Positions 7,507 to 14,050 of a DNA stretch of 20,707 bases are shown one piece after another. Within the stretch, counting starts at the first letter, position 1, and each line of letters starts with the position of its first letter. The translations under genes were made by a program, and so were the position numbers. The notes beneath the pieces are model-generated. The model was not told the origin of the DNA. It searched no databases and worked only from the letters and a program-made list of their open reading frames with translations. The DNA is from a virus: positions 1-20,707 of the IMG/VR virus record IMGVR_UViG_3300040810_000490, one strand, 5' to 3'.

Positions 7507-7683
7507 ATGGTAACTGAACAAGATTTACAGCAAGAGCGTAAAAATATTAACCGATTAAAACAGGTTCAGCGCTCATACATGGAAAAGAGAGCTACCAGGT
7601 ATGCTGGCTTAAAAGAAAAAATTGAGCTTAAAAAGTTAATTAATGAACTAAGTAAGGATGTTTGGGATGATGAAATTGATTGA
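7507..7683 (+). CDS. Small charged helical protein, first gene of + strand cassette
   Basis: The 58-aa product begins MVTEQDLQQERKNINRLK and is almost entirely charged and helical, ending SKDVWDDEID. It resembles small phage proteins of unknown role and could be a DNA- or protein-binding regulator. The ATG at 7507 is preceded by CGAGGTGATTT, a strong SD identical in spacing to other accessory genes in the window. It is the first of four small genes that run opposite to all structural genes, and overlaps the next gene by 17 nt. No homologue is recognised. Confidence 0.75.
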   Translation: MVTEQDLQQERKNINRLKQVQRSYMEKRATRYAGLKEKIELKKLINELSKDVWDDEID

Positions 7684-7798
7684 TTTAGCTTTTGAGTGCG
7701 CAACTTACTGTTTGTTGTGTTTAATGATTGGCTTTGCTGTTGGTTATGTTTTAGCAGGGCCAAAGGTTTTAGATATTATTATTAATTGGATATGGTGA
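7667..7798 (+). CDS. Small single-pass membrane protein
   Basis: The 43-aa product (MMKLIDLAFECATYCLLCLM and onward) has one hydrophobic segment at about residues 8-30, then GPKVLDIIINWIW. Two adjacent ATGs (7667 and 7670) are possible starts, with AAGGAT a few nt upstream. It overlaps the end of the 58-aa gene. Small one-TM proteins in accessory cassettes can act in host interference or lysis control, but nothing here shows which. Confidence 0.65.
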   Translation: MMKLIDLAFECATYCLLCLMIGFAVGYVLAGPKVLDIIINWIW

Positions 7799-7801
7799 TT
7801 T

Positions 7802-7981
7802 ATGATTAACAACGGTGTAGCAGGTAGTTCAAACTTTGTAGGCGGCAACACAGAAATTAAAACAGATGCTATCTGGAATATTGCAGCGCGTAACAATGAA
7901 AAGCAAAAGAAGGTGACTTATCGCATTAACGGCGAGCGGGTTAGCAAGGCTGAGTATTTATATTTTAAGGGTATGAAATGA
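7802..7981 (+). CDS. Small hypothetical protein
   Basis: The 59-aa product begins MINNGVAGSSNFVGGNTEIK and ends RINGERVSKAEYLYFKGMK. It has a glycine-rich N-terminus, a helical middle (DAIWNIAARNNEKQKK) and a small beta-turn-helix end (VTYRINGERVSKAEY) of a kind common in tiny phage proteins. The SD region is TGGTGATTT directly before the ATG. It follows the membrane gene by 3 nt and overlaps the next start by ATGA. Function unknown. Confidence 0.7.
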   Translation: MINNGVAGSSNFVGGNTEIKTDAIWNIAARNNEKQKKVTYRINGERVSKAEYLYFKGMK

Positions 7982-8157: not shown

Positions 8158-9402
8158 CTACACCTCTGTCAGTATGATAAAGCTGTCTTGTCTGGCGGTA
8201 ATATTATCGCTAGACGTTTTATTTTCTACCTCAACCCTAACCCTGTCGCCTTTAGCTAGATTTGCAATAAAGTTAAGTGGAAAGAAAGCAACGTCATTAG
8301 GCCCAACTAGGTTGTTTACAGTTCTTGATATGTGATTTAGTTCGGTAGGATAAGTTAAACCGCCATCAGTTGATTTTGTAACTCTTATGTCAATAACGTC
8401 ATTTGCTGTGCCCTGTATTGCAAAGTCGCCTGTGATTAAATAGTCACCGACGCCAGTTAAGCACTGAAACTCACCGTTTGATGGCTGGGCAAAATGAACA
8501 GACTTTTCAACTGTAAACGTTCCCAGTAATGGCGTGTAAGTGTCAATAGCAGATATTACAGTCTCAACCTGAGCGCTTAAAATTGATTTTATATACTTGT
8601 TTGTATTTGCCACTCCGGTGTTAGAATCCCAATTTGACTTAACAGAGTCAGCGCTAATATTTGGAGTGATCCCTGTATCATTTGGATTAATGACGCCAGA
8701 GCGGGTTATAAAAGCACCTTGCAACACCATGGATTCATCGTTAAGTATGTTTGATTCACCAAGGTCAGTTAGTGCGCCCGTAGCTGGTAGATCGCAGTTA
8801 ATATCTGTAATAAATCGACCCGAGAAGGTTAACCCTAAACCTGTTTTGAACAATGCCGACAAACCAGAAATACCGCGCACAATTGACGTTGATATTCTTG
8901 CGCCATTCCAAGCACCTCTAAACTCTAAAGCAGGCGTACCGCCAAACCTTCCCGTCCCAACCTCTAGATACTGTCTGTAGTCATCAATAAATCCAAGTGA
9001 TGTGCAATCATTAAAGTTTACCTTATCGAACTCTATCGCTTCATTGCCTGATGCGCCAGTTATGCTCCACAAGGATGAACCAGCACCGCTCACTGTAAAG
9101 GTCAGATCTCTACCAAGGATGTTACCACTACCGCCAACAGGCGATTTAAACATCGTGTAACCTGCGACTGTTGAAATTAGTTTTGATGTGTCGAAATTGT
9201 AGCCAGATAAATATAAGCCACCCGCAGGCACTTCTATCGATTGACTACCCATGTCAATAACGCCGTCAATAAAATATTCTTTTGTTGAGTCTAGCGTTCC
9301 TGATAGGTCAGCCGCACTAGTGACATTCACCCTTCCGGTTAAACCAGTTCCTGACTGTATAGCTGAAAGTATTTTTTCTAACAAATCATTTCTAATAGAC
9401 AT
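8158..9402 (-). CDS. Beta-rich structural protein (head fibre/decoration candidate)
   Basis: The 414-aa protein begins MSIRNDLLEKILSAIQSGTG, then is almost all beta strand and glycine turns (VPAGGLYLSGYNFDTSKLIS, SITGASGNEAIEFDKVNFND), resembling the coiled beta-helix or beta-sandwich proteins of virion fibres and decorations. The C-terminal part (about 285-414) looks like a jelly-roll: FFPLNFIANLAKGDRVRVEV. It lies between the major capsid gene and the connector genes, not in the tail-tip region, so capsid attachment is favoured over a receptor-binding tail spike. The N-terminal RNxLLxKI motif is shared with the 39-aa gene upstream. GGAG stands 9 nt before the ATG, and a structured RNA leader precedes it. 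Confidence 0.75.
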   Translation of the reverse strand: MSIRNDLLEKILSAIQSGTGLTGRVNVTSAADLSGTLDSTKEYFIDGVIDMGSQSIEVPAGGLYLSGYNFDTSKLISTVAGYTMFKSPVGGSGNILGRDLTFTVSGAGSSLWSITGASGNEAIEFDKVNFNDCTSLGFIDDYRQYLEVGTGRFGGTPALEFRGAWNGARISTSIVRGISGLSALFKTGLGLTFSGRFITDINCDLPATGALTDLGESNILNDESMVLQGAFITRSGVINPNDTGITPNISADSVKSNWDSNTGVANTNKYIKSILSAQVETVISAIDTYTPLLGTFTVEKSVHFAQPSNGEFQCLTGVGDYLITGDFAIQGTANDVIDIRVTKSTDGGLTYPTELNHISRTVNNLVGPNDVAFFPLNFIANLAKGDRVRVEVENKTSSDNITARQDSFIILTEV

Positions 9403-9428
9403 TTGTCATTTCTCCAATGTCAAACTAT

Positions 9429-9536
9429 CTTGGCAGGTATAAGGCTCATCCTCTGAGCAATCTTCCTAATGGTTGGCAGTTATGGCAGTAAGATTGGGAG
9501 CGCTCCCTAGTTGCGGCCCTGCCAAGGCGACCGCAA
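9429..9536 (-). ncRNA. Candidate structured RNA leader with pseudoknot
   Basis: Between the 39-aa and 414-aa genes the minus strand contains five perfect complementary pairs. S1 is 9536-9531 with 9516-9511 (6 bp). S2 is 9526-9518 (in the S1 loop) with 9437-9429 (9 bp), which makes a pseudoknot. P3 is 9496-9490 with 9464-9458 (7 bp). P2 is 9458-9454 with 9448-9444 (5 bp). GGGAGCGCTCCC at 9496-9507 is a 12-nt palindrome that shares one base with P3. A TATAAT promoter starts transcription at about 9534, at the base of S1. It has no U-tract of its own, so it is probably a 5' leader of the 414-aa gene, though a processed separate RNA is possible. No long reading frame crosses it. I recognise no known RNA family. 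Confidence 0.65.
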
Positions 9537-9540
9537 AATC

Positions 9541-9569
9541 ATTATACAATTAGGTGGTTATAGCGGCAA
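9541..9569 (-). promoter_or_regulatory. Promoter for the structured RNA / 414-aa gene
   Basis: A perfect TATAAT (9546-9541) lies 17 nt after TTGCCG (9569-9564; 4 of 6 consensus matches). The expected start is near 9534. The promoter overlaps the 3' end of the 39-aa gene and would let the leader and the 414-aa gene be expressed apart from the capsid genes. Confidence 0.65.
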
Positions 9570-9669
9570 GCCAATCTCTTAACAGTTGATTCCTGTTGTT
9601 TTGATTTGTTACAGTGCCGCCGTTAGCTGATACTATTTTAGCTAGTAACTGGTTTCTCGTATTACTCAT
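9550..9669 (-). CDS. 39-aa protein with duplicated RNQLL motif
   Basis: The product starts MSNTRNQLLAKIVSANGGTV, continues TNQNNRNQLLRDWLAAITT, and contains RNQLL twice, 21 residues apart. I recall similar tiny proteins near capsid genes of other phages, but could not check this. The 414-aa protein starts with the related RNDLLEKI, suggesting the motif docks proteins onto the same partner, possibly the capsid (inference). The SD is weak (GGAC about 11 nt upstream). It lies just after the bidirectional terminator at 9690-9716. Confidence 0.7.
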   Translation of the reverse strand: MSNTRNQLLAKIVSANGGTVTNQNNRNQLLRDWLAAITT

Positions 9670-9689
9670 GTTCTAATGTCCGCATAAGT

Positions 9690-9716
9690 AAAAAGCCACT
9701 ATTCAGCGGCTTTTTT
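9690..9716. terminator. Bidirectional terminator after the capsid group
   Basis: AAAAAGCC, a 10-nt loop and GGCTTTTTT form a GC-core stem flanked by A/T runs on both sides, so it can work in either direction. For minus-strand transcripts it ends the scaffold-capsid-41-aa unit. Confidence 0.75.
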
Positions 9717-9726
9717 GGTTTTACGT

Positions 9727-9852
9727 TTAGGTTTTGGCTTGCTCCGCTGGCTCTGGATTGAAACGCTCATCTACAACTCTGTAGCCTTTTGCGTTCCATT
9801 CCTTTTTAGTCTCAGTGGAGCATGGATGAGGTAAATACTTTACTTTATCCAT
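9727..9852 (-). CDS. Small capsid-linked protein (KVKYLPHP type)
   Basis: The 41-aa product begins MDKVKYLPHPCSTETKKEWN, continues AKGYRVVDERFNPEP and ends in a short tail. The pattern KVKYLPHPxSxExKxxxxxxGYxVxDxRF is a familiar tiny protein immediately after phage major capsid genes; its role is not established, though a capsid-accessory role is plausible. A strong SD (AAAGGTG) stands 4 nt before the ATG. The gap to the capsid gene is 9 nt, so the two are one operon. Confidence 0.8.
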   Translation of the reverse strand: MDKVKYLPHPCSTETKKEWNAKGYRVVDERFNPEPAEQAKT

Positions 9853-9861
9853 GCGTCACCT

Positions 9862-10842
9862 TTATTGATCAGCGTCAGCGATAGCTAGCGTACCTGCTAA
9901 GTGCTTATCTTCTGCCATTGCTTTATCCCAGTTTGTGCCAGTGAATAAAGCTGTGTCATCTGGTGACTTACCACCGTTTGCAGTATCCCACGCAAAGCCT
10001 TTAACTTTAAGGCCGAACGTGTAATCAGCCTGCCACGTTGTCTCGATGCGCTCTTTACCGTTGGTAGTTTCAAGGTTAGAAACAACGTCAGATGTATTAT
10101 CAACAACGATACCGCGGTTAACAAGTGACAATACCTTGTGCTTGTTAGGTGTGCCTGCAACATATAGTGAAGGAATGTCCGATACTACAAACACTTTGCC
10201 AAGGATTGATTGAACGCGAACATTGCTTGATTCGAACAAGCGCTCGCCATTTTCCAAGCCTTTCTCAAGTAGTTTATGGTATGCCGCGCCGGTCATAATA
10301 TCAGCCGTAAGCATTGATGACATATCACCAAATTTAGCATGTGAGCCATTTAGAACCGTTTGAGTTAACGCGCCTGCACCGCCAGTTAAAGCTGATACGT
10401 CATTAACTAATGCCGCTTGATTTTCAATAGCCGCAACACCAGCACCAACCGCCGTGTTAAGCTGGTCGGCAAGTAAAGCATCCGCAAAACCTTCCGCAAT
10501 TGCTGTAATTGCTTCACCTGGATTGCGCTGCAACCAAGACATTTGTGAAGGTTCAAACAATACAGGGCCAAAGCCACCTGCAACTTTAACGCCTGCAACT
10601 TCACCTTGAGAAAGCGCTGTTGATGCTTGAGCGTTGTTTGTACCATAGCGATTAACGCGACGCTGTGCGCCTGCTAATTGCTGGAAGAATGACTCTTTAT
10701 CATAATCACCGCGGAAACCGTCGGTAGATAAAATAATAGTGCCGCCTGATGCTTGGTTAAACTTATTTGTAGCTTGACCAAGTAGTTCAATTGTTAGGCC
10801 AATAATCTCATTGTTATAGACCTGCATGTTAGATAAAGCCAT
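9862..10842 (-). CDS. Major capsid protein
   Basis: The 326-aa protein follows the scaffold gene by 1 nt and is followed by the small KVKYLPHP protein, the standard place for the major head subunit. It starts MALSNMQVYNNEIIGLTIEL, then has helices and a loop (GFRGDYDKESFFQQLAGAQR), a central region AITAIAEGFADALLADQLNT, and a beta-rich end (ETTWQADYTFGLKVKGFAWD) typical of HK97-fold capsid subunits, where WxxxYxxGxKVKGxAW-like segments are common. No N-terminal propeptide of HK97 type is seen, which agrees with use of a separate scaffold. The exact family was not determined. An SD-like GGAG lies 13 nt upstream inside a small hairpin (10843-10859). Confidence 0.92.
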   Translation of the reverse strand: MALSNMQVYNNEIIGLTIELLGQATNKFNQASGGTIILSTDGFRGDYDKESFFQQLAGAQRRVNRYGTNNAQASTALSQGEVAGVKVAGGFGPVLFEPSQMSWLQRNPGEAITAIAEGFADALLADQLNTAVGAGVAAIENQAALVNDVSALTGGAGALTQTVLNGSHAKFGDMSSMLTADIMTGAAYHKLLEKGLENGERLFESSNVRVQSILGKVFVVSDIPSLYVAGTPNKHKVLSLVNRGIVVDNTSDVVSNLETTNGKERIETTWQADYTFGLKVKGFAWDTANGGKSPDDTALFTGTNWDKAMAEDKHLAGTLAIADADQ

Positions 10843-12922: not shown

Positions 12923-13453
12923 TTAATCACCACTCACGCATTCATCAAAGCTAATACTGCTATGGTATTTTGGTATACCTGTATCAAATTGACTCATTTC
13001 ACGATAACCCAAATTGAATTCAAACTTAGAATACCCATCCTTGTTAACACCAGAAATCAAAACATTGCGCGTTGGTATGTGGTAGTTTCCACTCATGCGA
13101 TAGCCGTCATATGCGTAAATATCCACCGTCACACTGTCTTGATGCTTATCTTCGTACTTAAACAAAACACGATTGCGCTTATAGCTATAGTCAAACTCTC
13201 CGTAAACATCTTCTTGACCATCAGCTCTAATTGTCCAATGAATGTGTTCCCACCATTTTTCTGTTAGCGTGAACTGTCCGCCAATATCAAAGCATAAGTA
13301 TTGATACACAGGCTCAGGCGGTGTGGGTGGTAAAGTAACCTCTGGCTTTGTTACTGGCTCGCTTGCAGTTGATGAGCCACCGCAAGCGGTTAACATGCAT
13401 GTAGATGCAGCAAGCCCTAACGCAAACAAAAATTTATCTAGTTTATTTTTCAT
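12923..13453 (-). CDS. Secreted lipoprotein, accessory (moron) gene
   Basis: The 176-aa product starts MKNKLDKFLFALGLAASTCM and has a lipobox LTAC at residues 21-24 (Cys24 becomes lipidated), then GGSS and a proline-rich linker (LPPTPPEP), then a beta-rich domain of about 120 residues. It is exported and anchored in a membrane of the host, so it is not a virion protein. It lies between portal and minor head genes, where phages often insert lysogenic-conversion genes. Superinfection exclusion by blocking a receptor, as T5 Llp does, is one hypothesis. The domain has no recognised family. A strong SD (GGAGGT) lies 8 nt ahead, inside the 56-aa gene. Confidence 0.8.
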   Translation of the reverse strand: MKNKLDKFLFALGLAASTCMLTACGGSSTASEPVTKPEVTLPPTPPEPVYQYLCFDIGGQFTLTEKWWEHIHWTIRADGQEDVYGEFDYSYKRNRVLFKYEDKHQDSVTVDIYAYDGYRMSGNYHIPTRNVLISGVNKDGYSKFEFNLGYREMSQFDTGIPKYHSSISFDECVSGD

Positions 13454-13613
13454 CTTCTTCGACCTCCAAATTATCAGGAATGTAAACGCCCTTGCGGATA
13501 AACTGTGAATTAGGCCCGCTTGTTCTTACGCCTATTTCAAACATTTCATCTAGTAACTTAGTGCGCTCTTGCGTTGTTAGGTCGCGCATTGACCTTAGCG
13601 TATACTGCTTCAT
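13443..13613 (-). CDS. Small hypothetical protein (56 aa)
   Basis: The product starts MKQYTLRSMRDLTTQERTKL, continues LDEMFEIGVRTSGPNSQFIR and ends VEEDEK. It is a charged helix with a short tail and no known family. The ATG at 13613 overlaps the YopX gene's stop as ATGA and has TTAGGTGATTT directly upstream. Its end overlaps the lipoprotein start by 11 nt, so all three genes are a coupled cassette. Confidence 0.72.
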   Translation of the reverse strand: MKQYTLRSMRDLTTQERTKLLDEMFEIGVRTSGPNSQFIRKGVYIPDNLEVEEDEK

Positions 13614-14050
13614 AAATCACCTAATAGCTCTGGGTTTTCGTGGATATTGCCTATTACTTTAAATCCCGTCATTTTATAGTAGCAATCCTTTGCGGTTACG
13701 TATGTTTCACGCCAAAACCTTTCAAAGGTGGCTTGATTTACATCGGCTAGATCAAACGACATGCTCTTATTGAAGTACCTAACGACAAACTTTGCGCTTT
13801 CAAATAAAACAACGCCCTTTATGTTTTCACAGTCATCAGCATACAGTTCGCCTGTCGCCTGCAATCTCCAATCGAAATTTAAAATATCACCCTCATAAAT
13901 CTCAACGCCGTTTTTATCTTTTAGTCCGGTGTATTGCATTGGGTGATAGTGCTTTGATTTAATAAATCCACGTAAATTTGTTAGTGTACAAGTATTATCA
14001 ACCATCGCTTTATCAATGCTATTCCAAGCTCTAAATTTAATATCTCTCAT
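13610..14050 (-). CDS. YopX-like phage protein
   Basis: The 146-aa protein starts MRDIKFRAWNSIDKAMVDNT and contains MQYTGLKDKNGVEIYEGDIL at residues 38-57, then GVVLFE and a C-terminal GNIHENPELL. RxIKFRAW, MQYTGLKDKNGxxIYEGDI and GNIxENPELL are the hallmark of the YopX family of small phage proteins, whose role is unknown. It is normally an early or accessory gene, so its place inside the structural region marks an insertion. SD AAGGTG spaced before the ATG. First gene of the moron cassette. Confidence 0.93.
   Translation of the reverse strand: MRDIKFRAWNSIDKAMVDNTCTLTNLRGFIKSKHYHPMQYTGLKDKNGVEIYEGDILNFDWRLQATGELYADDCENIKGVVLFESAKFVVRYFNKSMSFDLADVNQATFERFWRETYVTAKDCYYKMTGFKVIGNIHENPELLGDL

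Follow-up and report, generated by a model that had tools for sequence, protein, structure and literature searches.

An RNA element whose shape, rather than its letters, is kept among related phages lies between the capsid gene and a predicted spike gene of a tailed phage. That a conserved RNA leader exists at this position is close to certain, and comparison of the sequences gives good support to the view that it constitutes an RNA family defined by conserved shape. This family was not previously listed. We consider the element to be most likely a structured 5′ leader of the spike-gene transcript acting in cis as a translational switch, and put the probability of this reading at roughly 0.6. 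An undescribed pseudoknotted RNA leader had been proposed at this place in a preliminary description made from the sequence alone, and the comparison with related loci supports that proposal overall.

The element and its locus

The DNA analysed, hereafter the window, is the whole stretch of 20,707 nt (positions 1-20,707) of the IMG/VR record IMGVR_UViG_3300040810_000490, a 20.7-kb tailed-phage contig. The stretch of about 150 nt that holds the element is bounded by the capsid gene and two short ORFs on one side and by the gene of a 414-aa protein on the other. Read along the minus strand from 9546 to 9398, it presents a TATAAT box, a hairpin (P1) that begins about 4 nt after the box, a palindromic hairpin (P2), three copies of a complement of the P1 loop (A′1 to A′3) and the start codon of the 414-aa gene. 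The features are as follows.

9862-10842, minus strand: Gp13-like major capsid protein (PF20036)
9550-9669, minus strand: 39-aa ORF (MSNTRNQLL...WLAAITT) just upstream of the promoter, from sequence and alignment A2
9541-9569, minus strand: promoter-like site TTGCCG, 17 nt, TATAAT; matches 10 of 12 consensus positions, which is weak taken alone (1.1 expected in shuffles)
9511-9536, minus strand: P1, 5′-terminal hairpin TTGCGG(TC)-loop-(GG)CCGCAA, from sequence and covariation in relatives
9526-9518, minus strand: element A, CTTGGCAGG, within the P1 loop, with a 9-bp match to CCTGCCAAG
9496-9507, minus strand: P2, palindromic hairpin GGGAGCGCTCCC, 12 nt, from sequence and a palindrome kept in relatives
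9483-9488, minus strand: A′1, CTGCCA, complement of the P1 loop, 6 bp
9473-9479, minus strand: A′2, CTGCCAA, complement of the P1 loop, 7 bp
9444-9458, minus strand: hairpin at the P3 position, GCTCA-GAGGA-TGAGC, between A′2 and A′3
9429-9437, minus strand: A′3, CCTGCCAAG, 9-bp partner of the P1 loop
9398-9421, minus strand: P4 of the window subtype, GACATT-loop with GGAG Shine-Dalgarno-AATGTC, pairing the start codon (9402-9400)
8158-9402, minus strand: 414-aa gene downstream of the element (phrog_16509, function not annotated)

The minus-strand coordinates previously given for five complementary pairs were all correct on recheck. The pairs that form P1, P2 and the loop pairing are conserved, but the 6-bp pair AATCTT/AAGATT is lost in the four closest relatives and probably reflects a chance match of the sequence. 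The GCTCA/TGAGC pair is kept but invariant, and hence neither supports nor refutes an RNA structure. The single-sequence folding energy of the element in the window is ordinary (z = 0.25), so that energy as the sole criterion would lend it no support. A scan of positions 9380-9860 for a G+C-rich stem with a T run behind it found none, and an intrinsic terminator or attenuator in the leader was rejected on these grounds.

Elsewhere in the window the small terminase is conventional (PF03592). Three small plus-strand ORFs (58, 46 and 59 aa; 7507-7981) lie amid the minus-strand structural operon and are possibly an inverted accessory cassette. The head gene cluster includes a YopX-family protein (13610-14050, minus strand; PF09643, E = 1e-20) and a 176-aa protein (12923-13453, minus strand) that carries the lipoprotein-like signal MLTACGG, lacks a Pfam match and is possibly a superinfection-exclusion lipoprotein.

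A family united by layout

Loci were gathered with the capsid protein, with a short peptide carrying an RNxLL motif and with two DNA patterns, most of them through the neighbouring capsid gene. The patterns, TTGGCAGG-CTGCCA-CTGCC and the 14-mer CTTGGCAGGGCCGC, were run over IMG/VR; the matches listed were mostly due to chance, and two loci (L039 and L256) were gained from them. Our descriptor of the element comprised a TATAAT-like box, a hairpin starting 6-20 nt from the start of the box, a second hairpin adjacent to it and, within 115 nt, at least two or three reverse-complement copies of a word from the loop. It finds 42 copies, 34 of which are non-redundant; for L007 and L030 the placement was made by eye and by similarity. 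At a score of 6, that of the window, or above, there were 50 member hits (redundant loci included) and none in non-members across 7.5 million strand-bases of fetched sequence.

The members fall into loop types. GAGGG is by far the commonest (26 of 34, including TTAGAGGG in L295 and TGAGGGG in L444), GGCAG occurs in the window, L039, L256, L011 and L007, GACGGG in L349 and L307, and GTGAAGG in L403. We built a covariance model, R1, for the commonest subtype only, and its search misses the window copy by sequence. Hence, it is layout, position, promoter and gene context that hold the family together. R1 matched one site per record in seven records, mirror hits on the opposite strand apart, and a second copy of the element was not found in any of these seven.

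The position of the putative promoter is a regular part of this layout. A −10 box stands 1-9 nt before P1 in all 34 members (TATAAT or TATACT in 33, TACACT in one), a regularity partly built in, since the descriptor demanded a TATAAT-like box. This agrees with the placement of TATAAT relative to P1 in the preliminary description, and from these positions transcription should begin at or beside P1. The assignment of the element as a leader of the 414-aa gene also has its counterpart in the relatives, where the following coding gene begins 94-135 nt beyond P1.

The element seems to be found mostly in marine phages and behaves as an optional module, since L002 and L003 have RNxLL genes without it. 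The capsid protein of L007 shares 96% identity with that of the window, and there the element lies about 1.3 kb downstream of the capsid gene and precedes another RNxLL gene. Among isolate phages, DNA similarity searches with queries from several subtypes gave no element among the matches listed, which were short and spanned no more than a quarter of the query. At the corresponding site, Vibrio breoganii phage 1.206.O (L031, 3965-4000) has nothing more than a TATAAT box and a simple hairpin, AAAGGGTGGCATTAAGTCACCCTTT.

Covariation of the helices

The arms of P1 are extremely diverse, with 32 different 5′ arms among the 34 members, and the pairing is kept. When P1, P2 and P3 were aligned in 15 members of the commonest type, 95.7% of the cells were standard pairs. 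The alignment has 47 double-change cells, against 13.2 (sd 3.2) in shuffled alignments and at most 9 when the partner was slid. Compensatory change in relatives, which had been set as the test of the structure, is thus found in both P1 and P2.

P2 keeps its symmetry while its letters change: it reads GGGAGCGCTCCC in the window, GAGTAGCTACTC in L007 and GGGACGTCCC in L011, with centres as varied as AGCT, GCGC, CTAG, GGCC, ACGT and CGCG. A perfect 8-nt palindrome follows P1 immediately in 32 of 34 members, compared with 5.8% of random windows, a rate that serves as the control because the parsing of P2 sought palindromes. Such a palindrome would suit RNA dimers or a palindromic DNA site. We dropped it as proof of dimerisation, since a DNA palindrome would look identical. 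The wobble cells are more informative in P1, where 12 G-U against 2 A-C on the transcribed strand favour an RNA. In P2 the corresponding counts (8 versus 4) do not decide between RNA and DNA.

The P3 position is more variable. All five members of the window subtype have a hairpin there with an invariant stem, while other subtypes show GCCC-TTCG-GGGC, a hairpin around A′2, or none. In many GAGGG members A′2 sits in the loop of P3, on stems such as AAAAC/GUUUU, AAUAC/GUAUU, AAAGC/GCUUU and AUGC/GCAU, which suggests a loop-loop contact with P1.

The P1 loop and its complements

The loop pseudoknot proposed from the window alone was partly right: the 9-bp pair between CTTGGCAGG and CCTGCCAAG is real, but the loop usually has three complementary copies, not one. 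In the 34 members we counted 103 A′ copies, against 11.7 in dinucleotide shuffles (maximum 23), with two to five per member and irregular spacing between them. The loop and its complements change together, giving the pairs GAGGG/CCCTC, GGCAG/CTGCC, GACGGG/CCCGTC, GTGAAGG/CCTTCAC and TGAGGGG/CCCCTCA, and the table of loop type by copy type is diagonal except for one stray copy. The pairing of the loop with downstream sequence, as first described in the window, therefore stays complementary through several concerted letter changes. The A′3-P1 loop pairing spans 9-10 bp in the window, L039 and L256 and 7 bp in L011, and is degenerate in L007. The Watson-Crick run of A′3 with the P1 loop exceeds that with the Shine-Dalgarno (SD) sequence in 33 of 34 members, among them those whose SD has drifted to GGGGG; part of this excess is built in because A′ copies were picked by a loop 5-mer.

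Pairing with the ribosome-binding site and a proposed switch

Beyond the loop, the last A′ copy often meets the ribosome-binding site. Of the 34 members, 22 show it paired with the SD of the next gene by at least 4 pairs, 23 have two-thirds or more of the AUG in pairs, and z falls below −2 in 20. In the commonest types a single hairpin (P4) covers both SD and AUG, for example AUGAUUCCCUCA...UGAGGGCUAAUCAUG or AUAAUUCCCUCAAU...AUUGGGGGUAAUUAUG, and the outer P4 arms match their own partner more closely than in any of 10,000 permutations among members. With A′3 masked, opening the SD costs on average 5.3 kcal/mol instead of 7.9, whereas with A′1 masked it costs 8.0 and thus no less. The window subtype is organised differently. 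Two-thirds or more of the AUG is paired in each of its five members, in a register that differs between them. In the window itself, A′3-SD pairing is not predicted (0 pairs), masking the A′ copies leaves the opening of the SD unchanged, and the start codon is predicted to lie in a separate short hairpin. Both marks of a translation-controlling leader were nonetheless found, namely a conserved structure between promoter and start codon and a conserved pairing over the SD or AUG, the latter by a route other than A′3 in the window subtype.

These patterns suggest how a translational switch could work. Since the last A′ so often covers the ribosome-binding site, the element probably controls when the spike protein is made. 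In the main subtypes A′3 is complementary both to the P1 loop and to the SD, so that the loop and the ribosome-binding site would compete for one strand; the loop, itself SD-like in the commonest type, would rival the gene's own SD for A′3. When P1 holds A′3 the ribosome site would be freer, and when P1 is held by A′1 or A′2 the P4 hairpin would close and translation would be low. Candidate triggers are temperature, folding during transcription, a protein, or dimerisation through the P2 palindrome. In the window subtype, where the P1-A′3 pairing is strongest and the AUG lies in a separate hairpin, a switch may be proposed by analogy; it is less evident there, as A′3-SD pairing is not predicted in the window.

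Other functions could be imagined for the same layout. It is possible, though rather unlikely, that P1 and the loop-A′ pseudoknot stabilise the 5′ end by shielding the transcript from 5′-end-dependent decay, with P4 as a separate translational brake and the A′ copies as redundant partners. The start of P1 at the expected +1 and the prominence of the P1-A′3 pairing, the strongest feature of the window, are consistent with this, and two to five equivalent partners would make a pseudoknot robust. Yet such a role leaves unexplained why the last A′ so often covers SD and AUG. An improbable reading is an expression sensor made of RNA only, in which leaders would pair through the P2 palindrome, and the P1 loop and its three or so A′ copies would make the ribosome site open or close with dimerisation. 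Spike output would then track the amount of transcript late in infection, and what is conserved would be a wiring diagram instead of a sequence.

We see little likelihood that selection acts on the DNA, with four protein sites (one inverted in P1, three direct) and a palindromic site beside the promoter. Operators would agree equally well with A and A′ changing in concert, with a near-perfect palindrome and with a place beside a promoter-like box, if the specificity of the protein differed between phages and the sites consequently changed together. However, the stems of P1, P3 and P4 covary outside these sites, which operators do not need, the A′ copies are irregularly spaced, the P1 wobbles are mostly G-U on the transcribed strand, and A′3 pairs with the SD. 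It is just as doubtful that the element is an independent RNA of about 100 nt, processed to pair in trans with phage or host RNA, or assembled through P2 as a packaging-type RNA. A simple leader would not normally carry several identical repeats and a self-complementary hairpin, and palindrome-mediated dimers are known in other RNAs (PMC7357161). Against this, the window has no terminator after the element, which runs straight into the SD and start codon and often pairs with them, and no second copy was found in the records searched. Finally, an antitermination signal acting on RNA polymerase like HK022 put, to pass terminators further down the late operon, is hardly credible: two adjacent hairpins do follow the promoter directly, and 26 of 34 members have a T-run immediately ahead of the promoter, usually within a terminator-like hairpin, but such a signal requires neither loop complements nor SD pairing, the most constrained features here.

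The downstream protein and the RNxLL motif

An AlphaFold2 model of the 414-aa protein, built with 15 sequences (mean pLDDT 86), comprises an N-terminal helix carrying RNxLL, a beta-helix and a C-terminal TNF-like domain, the RNxLL helix being modelled at low confidence (block pLDDT about 50). The beta-helix matches phage tailspikes with Z of about 16 and the TNF-like domain has structural matches with Z of about 14. The protein is therefore predicted from its model to be a virion spike or fibre; its attachment to the head is a guess based on the adjacency of its gene to the capsid gene.

In the members examined, the protein of the next gene begins with an N-terminal M/RN-x-(I/L)L motif. Unannotated peptides of 35-39 aa with a repeated RN/MN-x-(I/L)L motif occur in the window (9550-9669, minus strand), L020, L030, L312, L349 and others, and alignment A2 gives them the consensus GGTVTxxxNRNxLLxDWL. 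By alignment, the 39-aa ORF of the window, upstream of its promoter, is a relative of 36-aa RNxLL peptides that in other phages are placed after the element. The same motif starts larger downstream proteins whose bodies differ, and it resembles a virion-attachment tag held in common by exchangeable spikes. In L023, downstream of position 841, the N-terminal part of the protein repeats SRNxLL several times, as if anchors were chained.

Relation to known RNAs

In agreement with the preliminary description, which recognised no known family, neither the window element nor the corresponding site of 11 further loci matched any Rfam 15 family at the gathering threshold. Near the window element, a search at E up to 10 returned only chance matches far below gathering scores, and in eight loci of other subtypes the element was unmatched at E up to 1. 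At 4472-4541 of L403, downstream of its GTGAAGG-type element, the Rfam int-alpA RNA scored 33.1 bits against a threshold of 35.8. The motifs of a 2017 survey of 224 candidate RNAs are reportedly included in Rfam, and no description of the element was found in the papers searched. Mu-gpT-DE is a known RNA element that adjoins a phage capsid gene; we rejected this identity as the Rfam scans gave no match.

By function the element resembles translational leaders, and it belongs to no family tested. It is like translational riboswitches and RNA thermometers in having a hairpin-buried ribosome-binding site and an anti-SD strand with an alternative partner in the leader (P4 versus the P1 loop). In contrast with these, its anti-SD motif is repeated about three times, the competitor is the loop of a 5′-terminal hairpin, no conserved ligand pocket was seen and almost no letters are common to the subtypes. 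Outside the −10 box and the pairing logic we saw none in a general comparison of the members. Post-transcriptional control in phage T4 has reportedly been reviewed. Phage leaders that sequester the ribosome site generally do so by a single hairpin or by a site to which a protein binds. They too control genes by hairpins over SD and AUG, but in the present element the conserved architecture also includes a palindrome and, at the 5′ end, a partner for a pseudoknot or kissing contact.

The guanidine-II riboswitch and other palindromic kissing RNAs have hairpins with a self-complementary centre, with fixed ACGR loops in guanidine-II (PMC7357161). P2 has a similar centre, which from its sequence would be fit for homodimers, but its letters vary. 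The packaging RNA of phi29 is likewise a phage RNA with complementary loops. Unlike it, the element is read here as the leader of an mRNA and lies among the structural genes of a phage whose small terminase is conventional, and phi29 packaging RNA was rejected because its Rfam model gave no match; no feature of the element points to a packaging RNA. A type III toxin-antitoxin RNA was also rejected, given the irregular A′ spacing, the lack of a terminator in the window and the spike-like next gene.

Implications

What is conserved in this family is a wiring: loop A, about three complements, a palindrome and a promoter at the 5′ end. Since this wiring is kept while most letters are rewritten, the family escapes sequence searches and models built on one subtype. 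The element stands ahead of spike-like genes, and so bears on the timing and amount of phage surface proteins.
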